Assembly (NCBI GenBank): GCA_903858935.1
Contig: CAIOKO010000085.1
Span: 1-64,000 of the forward strand
Reading direction: 5' to 3'
Source of the DNA: an uncultured Schlesneria sp.
GTDB lineage: Bacteria; Planctomycetota; Planctomycetia; Planctomycetales; Planctomycetaceae
Length of the DNA: 64,000 nt
Shown: in pieces, positions 5,417-61,790 of the stretch
Position numbering within the stretch: position 1 is the first letter of the stretch
Layout: the number at the start of each line of letters is the position of its first letter
Made by a program: the position numbers and the translations under genes
The notes under the pieces: model-generated
Database searches by the model: none
The model's input: the letters and a program-made list of their open reading frames with translations, nothing else
Told to the model about the DNA's origin: nothing

Positions 5417-5875
5417 GTGAAACGCCTGAGTTTATTCTTCGGCCTGATGTCGTGGTGGATGCGTCTGCAAATCCTGGTGATGATCCTGTTCATGGTCTTT
5501 CAGTTCAGGTTTGACGTGCGCAAAGGAATCTGGCCCGTTGCGGTCGCAATCGTCATCGCCACCTGGCTGGTCGGCTGGCTGTTGATGAAGTTGATGATCG
5601 CTTATCCTCGACCAGCGTTTAAGATCTGGAGTTCACTTGCAGGCTTGATCCTGTTCGTGCTGTTGACCATGTACACTCAGGGAAGAGGCCAACGGTGGTG
5701 GTTCAGGTTGGGTGCTCACTTTGGACGCGAAATTGTGATCGGTCTTTACCTGAGTTGCGGATATTGGTTCCTTTCAGAATTGCGTCTACTGCAAGACCGC
5801 CCGAAGATAGAGCCTGAAAGCGAGCACGACATTTTCCCGCCTGCTTATGACGAAAGTCGTCTGACGAATGAGTAA
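5417..5875 (+). CDS. Small four-helix membrane protein of unknown function
   Basis: A 152-residue protein that I do not recognise by family. It has four predicted membrane segments, near [46 protein letters not shown] and [17 protein letters not shown], and a short acidic cytoplasmic tail. The start is GTG at 5417, 9 bp after the purC stop. Its own stop overlaps the pyrF start by 8 bp, so its translation is tied to both nucleotide-biosynthesis genes. No catalytic motif is visible. The placement may reflect shared transcription only. Confidence 0.8.
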
Positions 5876-6809
5876 CCACTACGCAACCCGATTGCACGCC
5901 GCGATCAAAGCAAAACAAACACCGGTCCTGGTTGGCCTTGATCCCAGGCTGGATCAGCTTCCGCCAGATGTCTTGCGACACGCGAGGGATGAACACGATG
6001 ACCCCGTAGCTCAGGCAGCTGCGGCATTCGAAGAGTTCTGTGTTCGCCTTATCGATGTCGTCTCGCCACTGGTTCCGGCCGTCAAACCACAGTCGGCGTT
6101 TTTTGAGGAATGGGGGCCGGATGGCTGCCTCGCGCTATCTCGCGTGATACGCTACGCGCGATCGAAGGGATTGATCGTGATCTGTGACGCGAAACGAGGT
6201 GATATCGGCACCACGGCAGAAGCCTATGCCAGAGGTTATCTCGCGGGAGCCGACCCGAAAGCGGCCTTGTGGCAATCCGACGCACTGACCGTCAATCCCT
6301 ATCTCGGACGGGATACGCTTGAGCCATTCGTCAAGATTGCAAAAGAACGTGGGGCGGGAATCTATGTGCTGGTCAAAACCAGCAATCCCGGTTCCGCATC
6401 ATTCCAGGATCAGAATGCTGGTGGAACGACAATCTATCAGCACGTTGCGCGTGTGGTGGAAGAACTGGCTCTGGAGACCGCTGAAGATGGATTTGGCTGT
6501 GTTGGAGCGGTGGTCGGAGCCACCTACCCTCGTGAACTGGTCGAACTACGGGCATCAATGCCACATGTTCCGTTATTGATTCCGGGTTACGGCAGCCAGG
6601 GCGGGGCGGCTGCCGACGTCGCAACCGCATTTCAGGAAACGGGATTGGGAGCCGTCGTTAACAATTCGCGAGGAATCAACTTCGCGTACAAGGCGGAACC
6701 GTATGCCGAACAATTTGGACCAAGAAAATGGGAAGCGGCGGCTGAAGCGGCTACAAAGCAGATGATCGCTGACCTTGCAGCGAATACGACGGCAGGAAAA
6801 CTTATCTAG
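5868..6809 (+). CDS. pyrF: Orotidine 5'-phosphate decarboxylase, type 2
   Basis: A 313-residue OMP decarboxylase, which makes UMP from OMP in the last step of de novo pyrimidine synthesis. The catalytic cluster is intact in [18 protein letters not shown] (Asp107, Lys109, Asp112). The N-terminal [11 protein letters not shown] block, the phosphate-loop region [10 protein letters not shown] and [10 protein letters not shown] also match. The length fits the long type 2 form found in planctomycetes and actinobacteria rather than the roughly 230-residue E. coli form. The ATG overlaps the end of the preceding membrane-protein gene, which indicates translational coupling in the purC operon. Confidence 0.95.
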
Positions 6810-9005: not shown

Positions 9006-9059
9006 CCTTAGATTGAACCACCAACCTTTCTGATGGATTCCCGATTGTCAGAGTTGGGA

Positions 9060-10013
9060 TCATCCGCAGTTCGGTCCGACAGCTTTACGGCATTGCCTGG
9101 CATCAACGACAAGTGTGTCCGCAGCGAGGTCTCCCAGTCGCTGGCGGCATCCGGTGACAAGCATGGTAGTGATCCCAGGCAATGGGGAAAGCAACAAGGG
9201 TGCGTCAACGGCCATTAACAATTCTCGCAACAGTGATCGGGCAATTCCGCAGGGACGAAGAGACGTTCCAAATGTACGCAATCCGAACAGCCACTTGCCC
9301 GGCGTCACGCCCCAGCGAGCCTGCATCAGGACCAACATGATGAAGAACACGATCGATGCGAGTACATCGGGACGAAGCGTTTTGAATAACTCAGTGAAGG
9401 CCTGTTGGGATTCACCCGATCCCCAGTAAAGTCGAATGATCTGTTCTTCAGGGATGCTGGGCAGCGAGACCAGAGCGCGGACCAGCAGCGGACTGAACAG
9501 TAAGATCAGATCAATCGCTCGTGCCAGGCATCGCCGACCAAACGTCGCGAGTTGGACGGTGTCGTGACCAAATTGATACGACGAATCTTGCCCACGCGAT
9601 AGCCAGATGCTTGAGCAGATTAACAGAATCGTGACGACGAAAACGACACCGACGATTTGCATCAGGACTCGTTCCGTCCAGTGAAGCCACTTGGTGATCG
9701 GAGTGCTGATTGGCAAATTCACGTCATTAAGCTCGCCTCGTTCATAGCGTTGAATTCGGGGCCTGAAAAGATTTCGATCTTGAATGGCGTAGACCTCTTT
9801 CCCATCGAATGTGCTGTCCAGACTGCTCGCGTTCCAAGGCGCCAGGCCTGTTTCCATGACCACTCGAAACGGCGTTTCACTTCCGGCAGGAGTTTGTTCC
9901 CAAAATTGAACCGACTTATCGGGCTGGTCGAAAGCCACGATTAACACCCCATCGCCGGCGCGGCACGAATTAAAGAATCGCCGACCAAAGTCGAGTTTTT
10001 TCCAACCAGTCAC
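9060..10013 (-). pseudogene. C-terminal part of an RDD-family membrane protein, split from its N-terminal part by an in-frame TAG
   Basis: An open frame of 317 codons from a GTG at 10013. It holds the end of a soluble beta-rich domain, a membrane anchor (VVFVVTILLICSSIWL) and an RDD membrane domain (RRCLARAIDLILLF; WGVTPGKWLFGLRTFG; RQRLGDLAADTLVV). The frame is open a further 31 codons upstream, up to a single TAG at 10107-10109, and beyond that stop the same frame continues as the gene at 10107-10775. The GTG has no ribosome site, and no better start is seen, so this half is unlikely to be expressed alone. It may be a fresh pseudogene, a sequencing error or a readthrough product. RDD domains are linked to ion transport in some bacteria; the function here is unknown. 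Confidence 0.72.
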
Positions 10014-10106
10014 ATCGGAAGCGACATTGCTGGGGAAAGCTGCCGAAGCGATTTCCGTGTCTCGAGTGACAAATTCCAGTCCTTGGCGATAGCAAAAAAC
10101 GTTCTC

Positions 10107-10775
10107 CTAGCTTCCGCTGTGAAGGAGATGTTGTGTGTCACCGACGGAAATCACACGGACCCATTCCCGCGCAGATGGTCGTACGGGATCTGATCGCGAT
10201 TCTTTCCAAAGTGGAACGAGTTGTTGTTCTCCGCTGAGTTCATCCTTTTCCCAGCGGCGTCCGACTCCGGGCAAGGCAACTTCTCCCCGGTCTTCCCATT
10301 CTCCTTCGTTGAAGACCAATAGACGATAGACGCCGTCATTATCAATGATGGCAGGTAAACCGTGATAAAGAAACATATGACATACTTGCAGGACGTTTAA
10401 CTTTCGCTTCGGTCGATATTCGGTCTGTCGTTCACCATCGACCTCAATCACCAGTCCACCACCGGCAAGCCATAGACGATTGCCTTCGGTGACCCAGCCG
10501 TTCCACGGCAAATGGATGGGATAGTCGGTGATGCGTTCATGACCTGAATCGAGATCAACCCCCTTGATTTCGAATTGAATCCCAGACGCGTCGCCCGACG
10601 CCAACAGCAATTCATTTCGATGGATCAAGGCGATTTCAAAGGTTCTCAGGTACCCCGAAGGCATCTTTCGAAAAGCCTGGATCAGAACGAGCGCAATTCC
10701 AGCGACCTGCAACATCACCAGCAATGTCCCCAAGGCGATGACCCATGTCCAACGGTCTACCACGCCATGATTCAC
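10107..10775 (-). pseudogene. N-terminal part of the TAG-split RDD-family gene
   Basis: A 222-codon frame starting at ATG 10775. Residues 11-35 form a membrane anchor (WVIALGTLLVMLQVAGIALVL), and the rest is a beta-rich soluble region resembling propeller blades (LWLAGGGLVIEVDGE; AIIDNDGVYRLLVFNEG). It ends HLLHSGS-TAG, and the same frame goes on without another stop as ENVFCYRQGLEFVTRD and into the RDD part ending at 9060. Read through, the product would be 571 residues: anchor, soluble sensor-like domain, then RDD membrane domain. The TAG differs by one base from CAG, TGG, AAG and GAG. Confidence 0.7.
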
Positions 10776-11218
10776 AAATGCTCTCCAGTCTCAGGTGATG
10801 CCGCAGTTTTCCGGGTCATGGCAAAAGCCATGTCAAAAAATACTAACATCCACGGCAAACAGGACAATCACGACAGATTGTCAGGTGATCAGCCCCGCTT
10901 TGCAACCACTGTGTTGTGAAACAGAATGTAAAAACCTGAAGGTGTCAAAAGCGAAGAGGAGACCTTCGGTCGGGTCCAGTGCGGGGTTAGGAGACCTGCG
11001 CACAAAATGCCCTGCAATCGTCTTTGGACACGTCAACGCGCGAACGATTTCCCTATTCTGAACCCGTCATCCGACGCGCATCAACCGGCTGTGCCGGCTG
11101 AGGGATGACGCCGGTCTGGTCGACCAGTTAACTTACTTGAATGGCCAGACGGGCGAATCAGTATTGGCTCAATCCCGAATAGAACAATTTTACGAATCAC
11201 GAATCAGGATACGACGAG
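10776..11218. other. Divergent intergenic region with a nested hairpin
   Basis: About 440 bases between the divergent RDD gene and the aldolase gene. I see no gene in it. Near the aldolase side is a nested inverted repeat: GTCATCC at 11066-11072 pairs with GGATGAC at 11103-11109, enclosing CCGGC-TGT-GCCGG at 11085-11097. This could be a leader structure, an old terminator or a degenerate repeat. No clear sigma-70 promoter stands out by eye. Confidence 0.45.
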
Positions 11219-11986: not shown

Positions 11987-12083
11987 TCGAATGTCACACG
12001 GAAAAGATCGGGGTTTGTGACAAAATCCAGGACTTCTTCGAAGTTGAAACCTGACTCATCGAGTCAAGTTTCGGAGTTTCTTC

Positions 12084-12255
12084 CAAAGATAGCCATCATC
12101 GCTCCGCGTGATGAGCATGCGTTGGAAACGATTCAATCGTTTCCTTTGCCTCGGAACAAAGACTTCGTTTGAATACTTTTTTTGAGAACATGCTGACTGG
12201 TGTATAACAGATTCTCGAACAATGCTCATCACGCGGAGCGATGATGGCTACTTTG
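12084..12255. repeat. 172-bp element with about 34-bp terminal inverted repeats
   Basis: The left arm at 12084-12118 and the right arm at 12222-12255 are inverted copies, with 29 bp perfect (12090-12118 against 12222-12250) and the rest matching around one extra A at 12089. The 103-bp interior contains a second perfect palindrome, GGAAACGATT-C-AATCGTTTCC, at 12124-12144. No ORF of note is inside. The element directly abuts the ACTGCTT palindrome at 12255-12291. It could be a MITE-like relic or a long structured RNA; no target-site duplication is obvious. Confidence 0.85.
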
Positions 12256-48356: not shown

Positions 48357-48923
48357 TTAACCCGGTACCGTCATTGGTTCACCACACTGTGGGCAAATCA
48401 TACTTCGGCCTTTGTGAGCGGTACTGACTCGAAATCGCTTTCCACAAATGCACGTGAATCGAATTCTATCCGACGATTCTTTCGTATCATCCTGACGTGC
48501 TTTTGACCAGACGGCTTCAGCGACCTGACGAATGGTCGCAATCAGTTGTTCGGCCTCAACCGGCTTCGTCAAATATTCATCGGCTCCTACGCGCTTCGCC
48601 AACGCCCGGGACTCGTCGCTGTCAATCGCACTGAAGATCAGAATGGGGATTGTATCATCAGAATGCTTCAGACGATCACAAATTTCGAAACCTGATTCGC
48701 CCGGTAAGATTAAGTCGAGGATCACAAAGTCGGGTTTCTGCATCACGAAGAATGACTGTGCTTGACCACCGTCCTTGGCGATTTTGACAGACATCCCATG
48801 ATGTTCTAAGACGAGCTTCGTCGCATTTGCAGAGTCTGCATCATCTTCGACCAGCAACACAAGGTTGACTGTCACACCAACATTCGCCAGCTGCGACCAA
48901 CGATCACCATTCACGGGCATCAC
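48357..48923 (-). CDS. Response regulator receiver domain with C-terminal zinc ribbon
   Basis: A 188-residue protein: a CheY-like receiver domain (about 20-140) with the acid pocket VEDDAD (Asp27, Asp28), phospho-acceptor VILDLIL (Asp70) and YLTKPVEAEQL (Lys), then a C-terminal zinc ribbon with two pairs (CICGKRF and CPQCGEPM). There is no HTH, so it does not bind DNA in the common way. The ribbon may bind nucleic acid or a protein partner. No histidine kinase is near. It lies upstream of the FHA gene. Two ATGs at 48923 and 48920 are possible. Confidence 0.87.
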   Translation of the reverse strand: MMPVNGDRWSQLANVGVTVNLVLLVEDDADSANATKLVLEHHGMSVKIAKDGGQAQSFFVMQKPDFVILDLILPGESGFEICDRLKHSDDTIPILIFSAIDSDESRALAKRVGADEYLTKPVEAEQLIATIRQVAEAVWSKARQDDTKESSDRIRFTCICGKRFRVSTAHKGRSMICPQCGEPMTVPG

Positions 48924-59803: not shown

Positions 59804-60754
59804 TCAGAACTCGGGAGTCAGCTCTCCATCGCTTCGATGTGCCAAATTTCGAAGTGTCTTCGGATCCGTGTTCATGCTCATTGCATACACGGCGCCATCG
59901 CCTTTCAAAACCATGAACAGATTTCCGGTATGGTCACTGCCGATCCCCCCCACGATTTCACGATCTGCTTCTAGGTCTGAGAGTCCTTGCTTTAACGTGA
60001 TACGGTCAACGCCATCCTTGCGGCTCGAATTGAATTCCCAACCGTCGCCTCCTGCGCCGCCACGAGAGTTCGGCTGGCCGACTGGTACCGCTCGAACGAC
60101 GTTTCTTAAAGACGATCGTGTTCCAGAAATCCAACCCAGGTCACGTGCATGATCGATCCTGCTCTCGACTACAAAGAGCGTATTCGAACTTCCATCTCGA
60201 ATTTGCTCGTATCGAATGGAACTGTTCAGGAACAACACTCCGTTCTGATTCACGTCGATCGGAGTTTCAAAATCATTGTGGATTCCGCTGTAATTCGTCC
60301 ACGCATAAGTCAGCGAAGGGGTGTCTCTGGCTGATGGGCACTGCAAGATGCCGATCTGAAATTGTCTCGCTGGCAGATTGATCGGGTCGTACACGGACCT
60401 CGTAAAATCAATGTGCTCGTAGACATATTGCTTTTCAAGATAGGGAAGAATCTGCGAGATCCATCCCATGTGGTAGCCGCCCCCTTCTTTCGACAGTATC
60501 GGCCCGGAATTATTCTGCGTCCCAGGCGGCAGAACTTCGTGAGCCATCATGTAATTGTTTAATGCGACTCCGATCTGCATCATGTGGTTCAAGCATTGCG
60601 CTCGCCGAGCCGCTTCACGAGCCTGCTGAACGGCAGGAAGCAACAACGCGGCCAACACCGCGATGATTGCAATCACAACCAGCATTTCAATCAGCGTAAA
60701 CCCTGATCGGAAATACGTTGGACTCCGGCGAGAAGCGAGACTCAATCGAATCAT
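59804..60754 (-). CDS. DUF1559 protein with type IV prepilin N-terminus (copy 2)
   Basis: A 316-residue pseudopilin-like protein. The prepilin leader is RSGFTLIEMLVVIAII (cleavage after Gly, Glu at +5), followed by the planctomycete AALLLPAVQQAREAARRAQC helix. The C-terminal H-x9-DG region reads HTGNLFMVLKGDGAVY. The protein is 58 bp downstream of a paralogue and highly similar at DNA level in places, including the block around 60236-60300. DUF1559 proteins are very abundant in planctomycetes and are thought to form surface fibres or secreted complexes. Confidence 0.92.
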   Translation of the reverse strand: MIRLSLASRRSPTYFRSGFTLIEMLVVIAIIAVLAALLLPAVQQAREAARRAQCLNHMMQIGVALNNYMMAHEVLPPGTQNNSGPILSKEGGGYHMGWISQILPYLEKQYVYEHIDFTRSVYDPINLPARQFQIGILQCPSARDTPSLTYAWTNYSGIHNDFETPIDVNQNGVLFLNSSIRYEQIRDGSSNTLFVVESRIDHARDLGWISGTRSSLRNVVRAVPVGQPNSRGGAGGDGWEFNSSRKDGVDRITLKQGLSDLEADREIVGGIGSDHTGNLFMVLKGDGAVYAMSMNTDPKTLRNLAHRSDGELTPEF

Positions 60755-60812: not shown

Positions 60813-61790
60813 TCAAAAATCCTTAAGCATTTCGCCGTCAGACCGATTTGCCAGATTTCGGAAAGTTTTGGGATCAATGTTCTGACTGATAAATCGGACG
60901 GCGCCGTCTCCCATCACGAAATGCCCGCCTCCGACATGAAAGCTGCTTGGTCCTCCGACAAACTCGCGGCCCGACTCCATATCGGCCAGTTCCTGCCTCA
61001 AGTTGCTGCCGTTAACATTGCTGAGCGATGTGGCATGCAATCGGAATGTCGGTTCTGGCTGCGCGACAGGCTGTGCACTGCCGGCCCCTTCATCGCCTGA
61101 CGAAGCAGCGGCAGGGGGATTGTTCGGGATCGCAACGACCAGATTTCGCAATGATGATCTTGTTCCCGACATCCAGCCGAGATCGCTGCCGGTATTCAAG
61201 CGACATTCTGCGACGTAAATCGTGTTTGAACTCCCGTCGGTGATCTGTTCATATCGAATGGAACTGTTGAGAAACAAGACTCCATTCTGATTCACACCGA
61301 TCGGAGTTTCAAAATCATTGTGAATTCCGTAGTAACTCGTTGCGGCAGCTGTTGGGCTGACGCCGGCGCTTCCGTCAGAAGGGCAGAGAAAAGAACTGAT
61401 CCTCTGCTGACGGGCAGGAACGTTGGCTGGATCATAAACCGACTTATTGAAATCGATGTGGTTATAGACATTCTGCTGTTCGAGATACGGCAGGATCTGT
61501 GTGATCCAGCTCATATGATAGCCAGCCCCCTCTTTGGACTGAATTGGTCCGGTGTCATTCTGAGTCCCCGGGGGCAGCACTTCATGAGCCATCATATAAT
61601 TGTTCAAAGCCAGGCCGATCTGCATCATGTTGTTTTTACATTGAGTTCGTCGCGCAGCTTCGCGAGCCTGCTGAACAGCAGGGAGCAACAACGCAATTAA
61701 GACCGCGATGATCGCGATTACGACCAGTAGTTCGATCAGGGTAAAACCTGAATGACGAGTTGCTCGATGGTTTGGAGTCACGTTGGACAT
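60813..61790 (-). CDS. DUF1559 protein with type IV prepilin N-terminus (copy 1)
   Basis: A 325-residue paralogue of the preceding gene product. The prepilin leader is HSGFTLIELLVVIAII with LLPAVQQAREAARRTQC after it, and the C-terminal motif is HVGGGHFVMGDGAVRF. An Ala/Ser/Gln-rich insertion (about 225-245) is not in copy 2. It lies 70 bp downstream of the pseudopilin operon, which may drive it. The long near-identical DNA blocks shared with copy 2 suggest a fairly recent duplication. Confidence 0.92.
   Translation of the reverse strand: MSNVTPNHRATRHSGFTLIELLVVIAIIAVLIALLLPAVQQAREAARRTQCKNNMMQIGLALNNYMMAHEVLPPGTQNDTGPIQSKEGAGYHMSWITQILPYLEQQNVYNHIDFNKSVYDPANVPARQQRISSFLCPSDGSAGVSPTAAATSYYGIHNDFETPIGVNQNGVLFLNSSIRYEQITDGSSNTIYVAECRLNTGSDLGWMSGTRSSLRNLVVAIPNNPPAAASSGDEGAGSAQPVAQPEPTFRLHATSLSNVNGSNLRQELADMESGREFVGGPSSFHVGGGHFVMGDGAVRFISQNIDPKTFRNLANRSDGEMLKDF

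Follow-up and report, generated by a model that had tools for sequence, protein, structure and literature searches.

A single in-frame TAG interrupts an RDD-family gene of an uncultured Schlesneria, a probable recent nonsense pseudogene

Introduction

The RDD family has been defined through an Arg that opens the first RDD helix, an Asp within that helix and a C-terminal Asp, as set out in the parts of PMC5996927 that deal with the definition. Two RDD proteins have been characterised: that of Halobacillus andaensis, presented in those same parts as a Na+(Li+,K+)/H+ antiporter, and SppI of Bacillus subtilis, which in the sections of PMC7568657 devoted to it inhibits the protease SppA. As for genes that are interrupted by a stop codon, the portion of Belinky et al. 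2021 (PMC7918605) concerned with selection argues for the retention of many in-frame stops in bacteria, at dN/dS values below 1. Young bacterial nonsense pseudogenes, as treated in the relevant pages of Kuo and Ochman 2010 (PMC2916853), show one inactivating mutation with past constraint retained.

Here we describe a gene of the window, i.e. the whole stretch of 64,000 nucleotides that was analysed, from an uncultured Schlesneria genome (G000) which was compared with genomes of the same genus group, 15 in all. Like the two characterised RDD proteins, its read-through product has a C-terminal RDD domain with the conserved Arg and two Asp; unlike them, it carries ~400 extra N-terminal residues, comprising an anchor helix and an apparently strand-rich region, and it is interrupted by a stop. 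The reading that we consider likely is that of a very recent nonsense pseudogene, from a fast-evolving, multi-copy gene lineage that is being lost across the clade.

Results

On the minus strand, positions 10775 to 9060 form a single frame which, read through, spans 571 codons and contains one internal stop, the TAG at codon 223 (Table 1). A sequence-only reading of the window had claimed as much (two ORFs in one frame, separated by 31 open codons and broken by the TAG alone), and the frame reading bears it out. The GTG start at 10775 has GGAG 7 bases upstream and aligns with the ATG of the orthologues in genomes G001 and G004. For the second half, the same reading had seen neither a ribosome site nor a good start; the lack of a good start stands, but the lack of a site does not, since an AGGAG overlaps the TAG. 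The TTG nearest behind this AGGAG is out of frame.

Table 1. Positions of the interrupted gene, its parts and signals, and the segment that carries it.
Feature	Position	Strand	Remarks
Segment carrying the RDD gene, absent from the corresponding G001 site	9012..11099		flank comparison
Upstream ORF	10107-10775	-	GTG start, 222 aa
Downstream ORF	9060-10013	-	GTG start, 317 aa
5' part of the RDD gene	10107..10775	-	GTG 10775-10773; first hydrophobic segment; first half of the putative strand-rich region
Premature in-frame TAG	10107..10109	-	lies in a loop whose length varies across the family alignment; G001 and G004 have CAT
AGGAG overlapping the TAG	10104..10108	-	first in-frame ATG, GTG or TTG 31 codons on
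3' part of the gene	9060..10106	-	open down to TGA 9060-9062; carries the second hydrophobic segment and the RDD domain
RDD domain, PF06271	9120..9548	-	residues 410-552 of the read-through frame; E 1.4e-15
Right-border copy of the ~65-bp dispersed repeat	11033..11097		repeat search

The RDD membrane domain that had been proposed from the letters of the window is correctly called, PF06271 scoring 58.2 bits against a gathering cut-off of 24.1. Arg 415, Asp 422 and Asp 549 do not vary in any of the 17 rows of the family alignment (A2), and each of these rows matches PF06271 at E 0.1 or better; the correspondence of these three positions with the residues named in PMC5996927 is our own reading. 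All three lie downstream of the TAG. Hydrophobic segments are found at residues 9-38 and 366-396, with none in the long stretch between, the order of the read-through protein being an N-terminal anchor helix, the strand-rich region, a second helix and the C-terminal RDD domain. The strand-rich character of the middle region is hinted at by the look of the sequence and by an AlphaFold model built from two rows (the G001 protein and the read-through window protein), whose mean pLDDT of 32 is too poor to trust and makes the order of strands and helices a hint only; that the region may be beta-propeller-like is an idea. It matched no Pfam family, the NCBIfam search yielded nothing credible, one PDB match, at E 0.067, was dismissed as chance, and a PDB search with the 17-row profile found no solved structure for it. 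A literature search on planctomycete RDD paralogues returned none using 'RDD' in that sense, from which no absence is claimed. Within the genus, the family that combines an anchor, a strand-rich region of ~300 residues and an RDD domain is multi-copy, with as many as 20 places matching in a single genome (G006).

A stop codon flanked by open frame is by itself not a rare pattern, as the 64-kb window holds five stops that are bordered on each side by 150 or more open codons in one frame. Another of these, at 48357-48359, turned out to be two separate ordinary genes, the second with its own ATG. The TAG at 10107-10109 differs from the bare pattern in that homologues run straight through it: the G001 and G004 orthologues do so, and the other full-length A2 rows, G001 included, are open across the site in 16 cases out of 16. 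These rows were picked as open frames and give no measure of how often copies are broken; the alignment left out the broken or partial copies L007/L043, L041, L042 and L050, the G004 and G005 orthologue copies, the second G006 copy (L048) and L021, of which L048 and L021 were used in the tree only. Homologues that end at HSGS and are accompanied by a separate RDD protein, which would have contradicted a single gene cut by the TAG, were looked for and not found among those aligned.

Matches at E 1e-60 or better are present in 7 of the 15 genus genomes (that of the window included), and the tree groups the window gene with those of G001 and G004 with 100/100 support. A near-full orthologue exists in these two other genomes among the 15. 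The G001 orthologue, from a Schlesneria MAG, is intact (its one TGA is the terminal stop), 557 aa long and about 70-71% identical to the window copy, while that of G004 has its own 2-base insertion after codon 401, so that the frame ends a few codons on, before the RDD domain. The window stop, at codon 223 of the 571 in the homologous frame, is absent from both orthologues. The TAG of G000 and the frameshift of G004 both remove the RDD domain and leave the anchor with some or all of the sensor-like region. What G005 keeps, on contig C307, is a C-terminal relic that spans residues 490-557 and is linked to the flank lying to the right of the locus in G001. The orthologous locus of the G001 gene in the window genome itself, on contig C190, has flanks that both match G001 (82.8% and 88% identity) and retains ~30 N-terminal codons. 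Among G000, G001, G004 and G005, an intact copy is found in G001 only; the gene is expendable in the clade, as follows from the G004 frameshift, the G005 relic and the loss of the copy at the orthologous locus of G000. An older RDD-family pseudogene with 5 internal stops lies on contig C228 of G000 (L043 6305-7402). Among the relatives searched there was no further genome of the window's own species.

The window copy sits away from the G001-orthologous locus, at a site where G001 has no such gene and where the gap between the PIN and aldolase genes is about 140 bp in G001 (contig C6) vs 2,088 bp in G000. Contig C209 of G005 shows the aldolase side only, and contig C11 of G004 shares sequence from window position 10949 onward, so that, relative to G004, the segment reaches 10949 at most on its right side. 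The window copy may be a moved orthologue or may go back to an older duplication. The right border lies in repeat-rich DNA. With the region of the ~65-bp repeat as query, matches numbered 65 in G000, 83 in G001, 63 in G004, 57 in G005, 45 in G013 and 21 in G010, counts that refer to the whole query and include a few matches other than the repeat itself. Its copies often stand in tandem at a spacing of 65-98 bp, which leaves no room for a gene; an integron cassette, an idea prompted by the position of the repeat at the border, is not claimed.

Other repeats were seen in the surroundings. One of ~53 bp, at window 10953-11005, is also found near the G001 gene (L038 7698-7750), on G001 contig C6 and on G004 contig C11. 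A dispersed repeat of ~225 bp (window ~12030-12255) lies between the aldolase and HAD-like genes, with more than 100 matches at 74-89% identity across G000, G001, G004 and G005, and none in G002 or G006 among the matches listed; it has perfect inverted arms of 29 bp (12090-12118 and 12222-12250), a MITE-like look and no match in Rfam. A third, of ~150-180 bp, occurs at window 60574-60703 and 61596-61748 and at about 4890-5080 of L038, with many copies in G000, G002 and G005.

Concerning selection, dN/dS between G000 and G001 is 0.25 before the TAG (95% 0.15-0.38) and 0.28 after it (0.20-0.39); the two intervals overlap and constraint shows no relaxation after the stop. Between G001 and G004 the values are 0.21 before and 0.175 after the frameshift. 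No second lesion was found in the frame that remains downstream of the TAG. Equal selection on both sides together with the lack of a second lesion indicates that the TAG is young. In a neutral simulation over 337 codons, the chance of staying lesion-free after the stop was, without indels, 0.15 at 0.05 substitutions per site and about 0.027 at 0.1; setting indels to 5% of substitutions brought the former value down to 0.03. The G000 branch amounts to ~0.35 substitutions per site (half of a dS near 0.7), hence the stop falls in the last part of that branch, an age bounded by the simulation only. Unrelaxed constraint and freedom from further lesions are expected of a very young pseudogene and do not decide whether the gene is one.

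Five neighbouring genes show dN/dS of 0.02-0.16 between G000 and G001, vs 0.25-0.28 for the RDD gene, and protein identities of 90-99.5% vs about 70%. The RDD gene is therefore weakly constrained for its neighbourhood and evolves much faster than its neighbours; the difference in identity would also fit a distinct paralogue.

The main rival to a young pseudogene is an error of base calling or assembly, or a mixture of strains, such that the gene is really intact and the TAG absent or carried by a minor strain only. One substituted base, in a draft assembly that counts 280 contigs, with no other lesion and equal selection on both sides, is what such an error would look like. Errors, however, need not cluster on one gene, and this one also carries damage in G004 and survives only as relics in G005 and at the orthologous locus within G000 itself; the lesions of G004 and of the window could both be assembly errors, but we regard this explanation as rather unlikely, and infer that the TAG is present in the living cell and not in the assembly alone.

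Decoding of UAG was surveyed through RF1 and the tRNA matches of the genome. RF1 is present, above its family cut-off, and none of the 51 tRNA matches typed by ARAGORN has the UAG-reading anticodon CTA, in a survey that scored 150 of 342 first-look candidates and covered all 20 amino acids. An alternative code or a suppressor tRNA is rejected on these two grounds, within the scope of that survey. TAG terminates 4 of the 32 window ORFs that reach 250 aa or more; one of the four is the gene at 5868-6809, presumably pyrF, whose product is 97% identical in G001.

These data weigh on a second alternative, namely that readthrough of UAG or some other leaky decoding yields a little full-length protein and keeps the gene functional at low dose. 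The low dN/dS after the stop speaks for it, since purifying selection there would be expected of a readthrough protein too, which counts against a pseudogene. With dN/dS far below 1 before and after it, the TAG also recalls the stops discussed in the above portion of Belinky et al. 2021 (PMC7918605). In contrast to those stops, the window TAG occurs in one genome only and the conservation argument, as made there, does not apply: the codon is CAT in both G001 and G004, no stop is found there in the 16 other aligned rows (picked as open), and RF1, the tRNA set and the ordinary use of TAG as terminator all point the other way. Low dN/dS past the stop is compatible with a young pseudogene and with readthrough alike; decay is favoured because the stop is unconserved and because sister genomes carry independent damage, and readthrough seems improbable to us.

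A related idea takes the TAG of G000 and the frameshift of G004 together, as dose control through leaky decoding or as a sign that RDD-less anchored forms are themselves favoured. If it were true, with full-length protein held at a low set level, it would be a case of dose control by nonsense or frameshift in a constrained gene, but we give it very little credence. Finally, a division into two genes, one for an anchor-sensor fragment and one for an RDD protein with its own start, to which the overlapping AGGAG and the constraint on both halves might point, is highly improbable, given that the first in-frame ATG, GTG or TTG comes 31 codons past the TAG (10013), lies within sequence that the orthologues conserve and lacks Shine-Dalgarno-like bases close upstream, that the downstream frame would begin within the strand-rich region, and that none of the aligned homologues is divided likewise.

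Discussion

A fresh pseudogene was one of three options raised from the sequence at the outset, beside a base error and a readthrough protein, and it is the one favoured by the equal selection, the lack of a second lesion, the absence of the stop from the orthologues, the G004 lesion, the relics, the presence of RF1 and the lack of a UAG-reading tRNA among those typed. In this pseudogene, the nonsense mutation at codon 223 would end translation inside the extramembrane region, the RDD domain would thereby no longer be made, and probably no functional product results. As to its history, the gene may have been lost from the orthologous locus in G000 while a copy at another site was kept and then disabled. 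The window gene resembles the young nonsense pseudogenes of Kuo and Ochman 2010 (PMC2916853), as far as the pages cited above describe them, in its one inactivating mutation and its retained past constraint, and the deletion down to relics in the other genomes resembles the decay described there. It looks like ordinary gene decay, and not like a new way of reading the code.

For the intact protein, a role in ion-coupled transport or as a membrane regulator might be guessed by analogy with the two characterised RDD proteins.

For annotation, both ORFs belong together as one interrupted RDD gene and are not two genes; beyond that the significance is small. The locus shows sister species losing one gene lineage through lesions of their own, and illustrates how low dN/dS past a stop can mean that the stop is young and need not mean readthrough.
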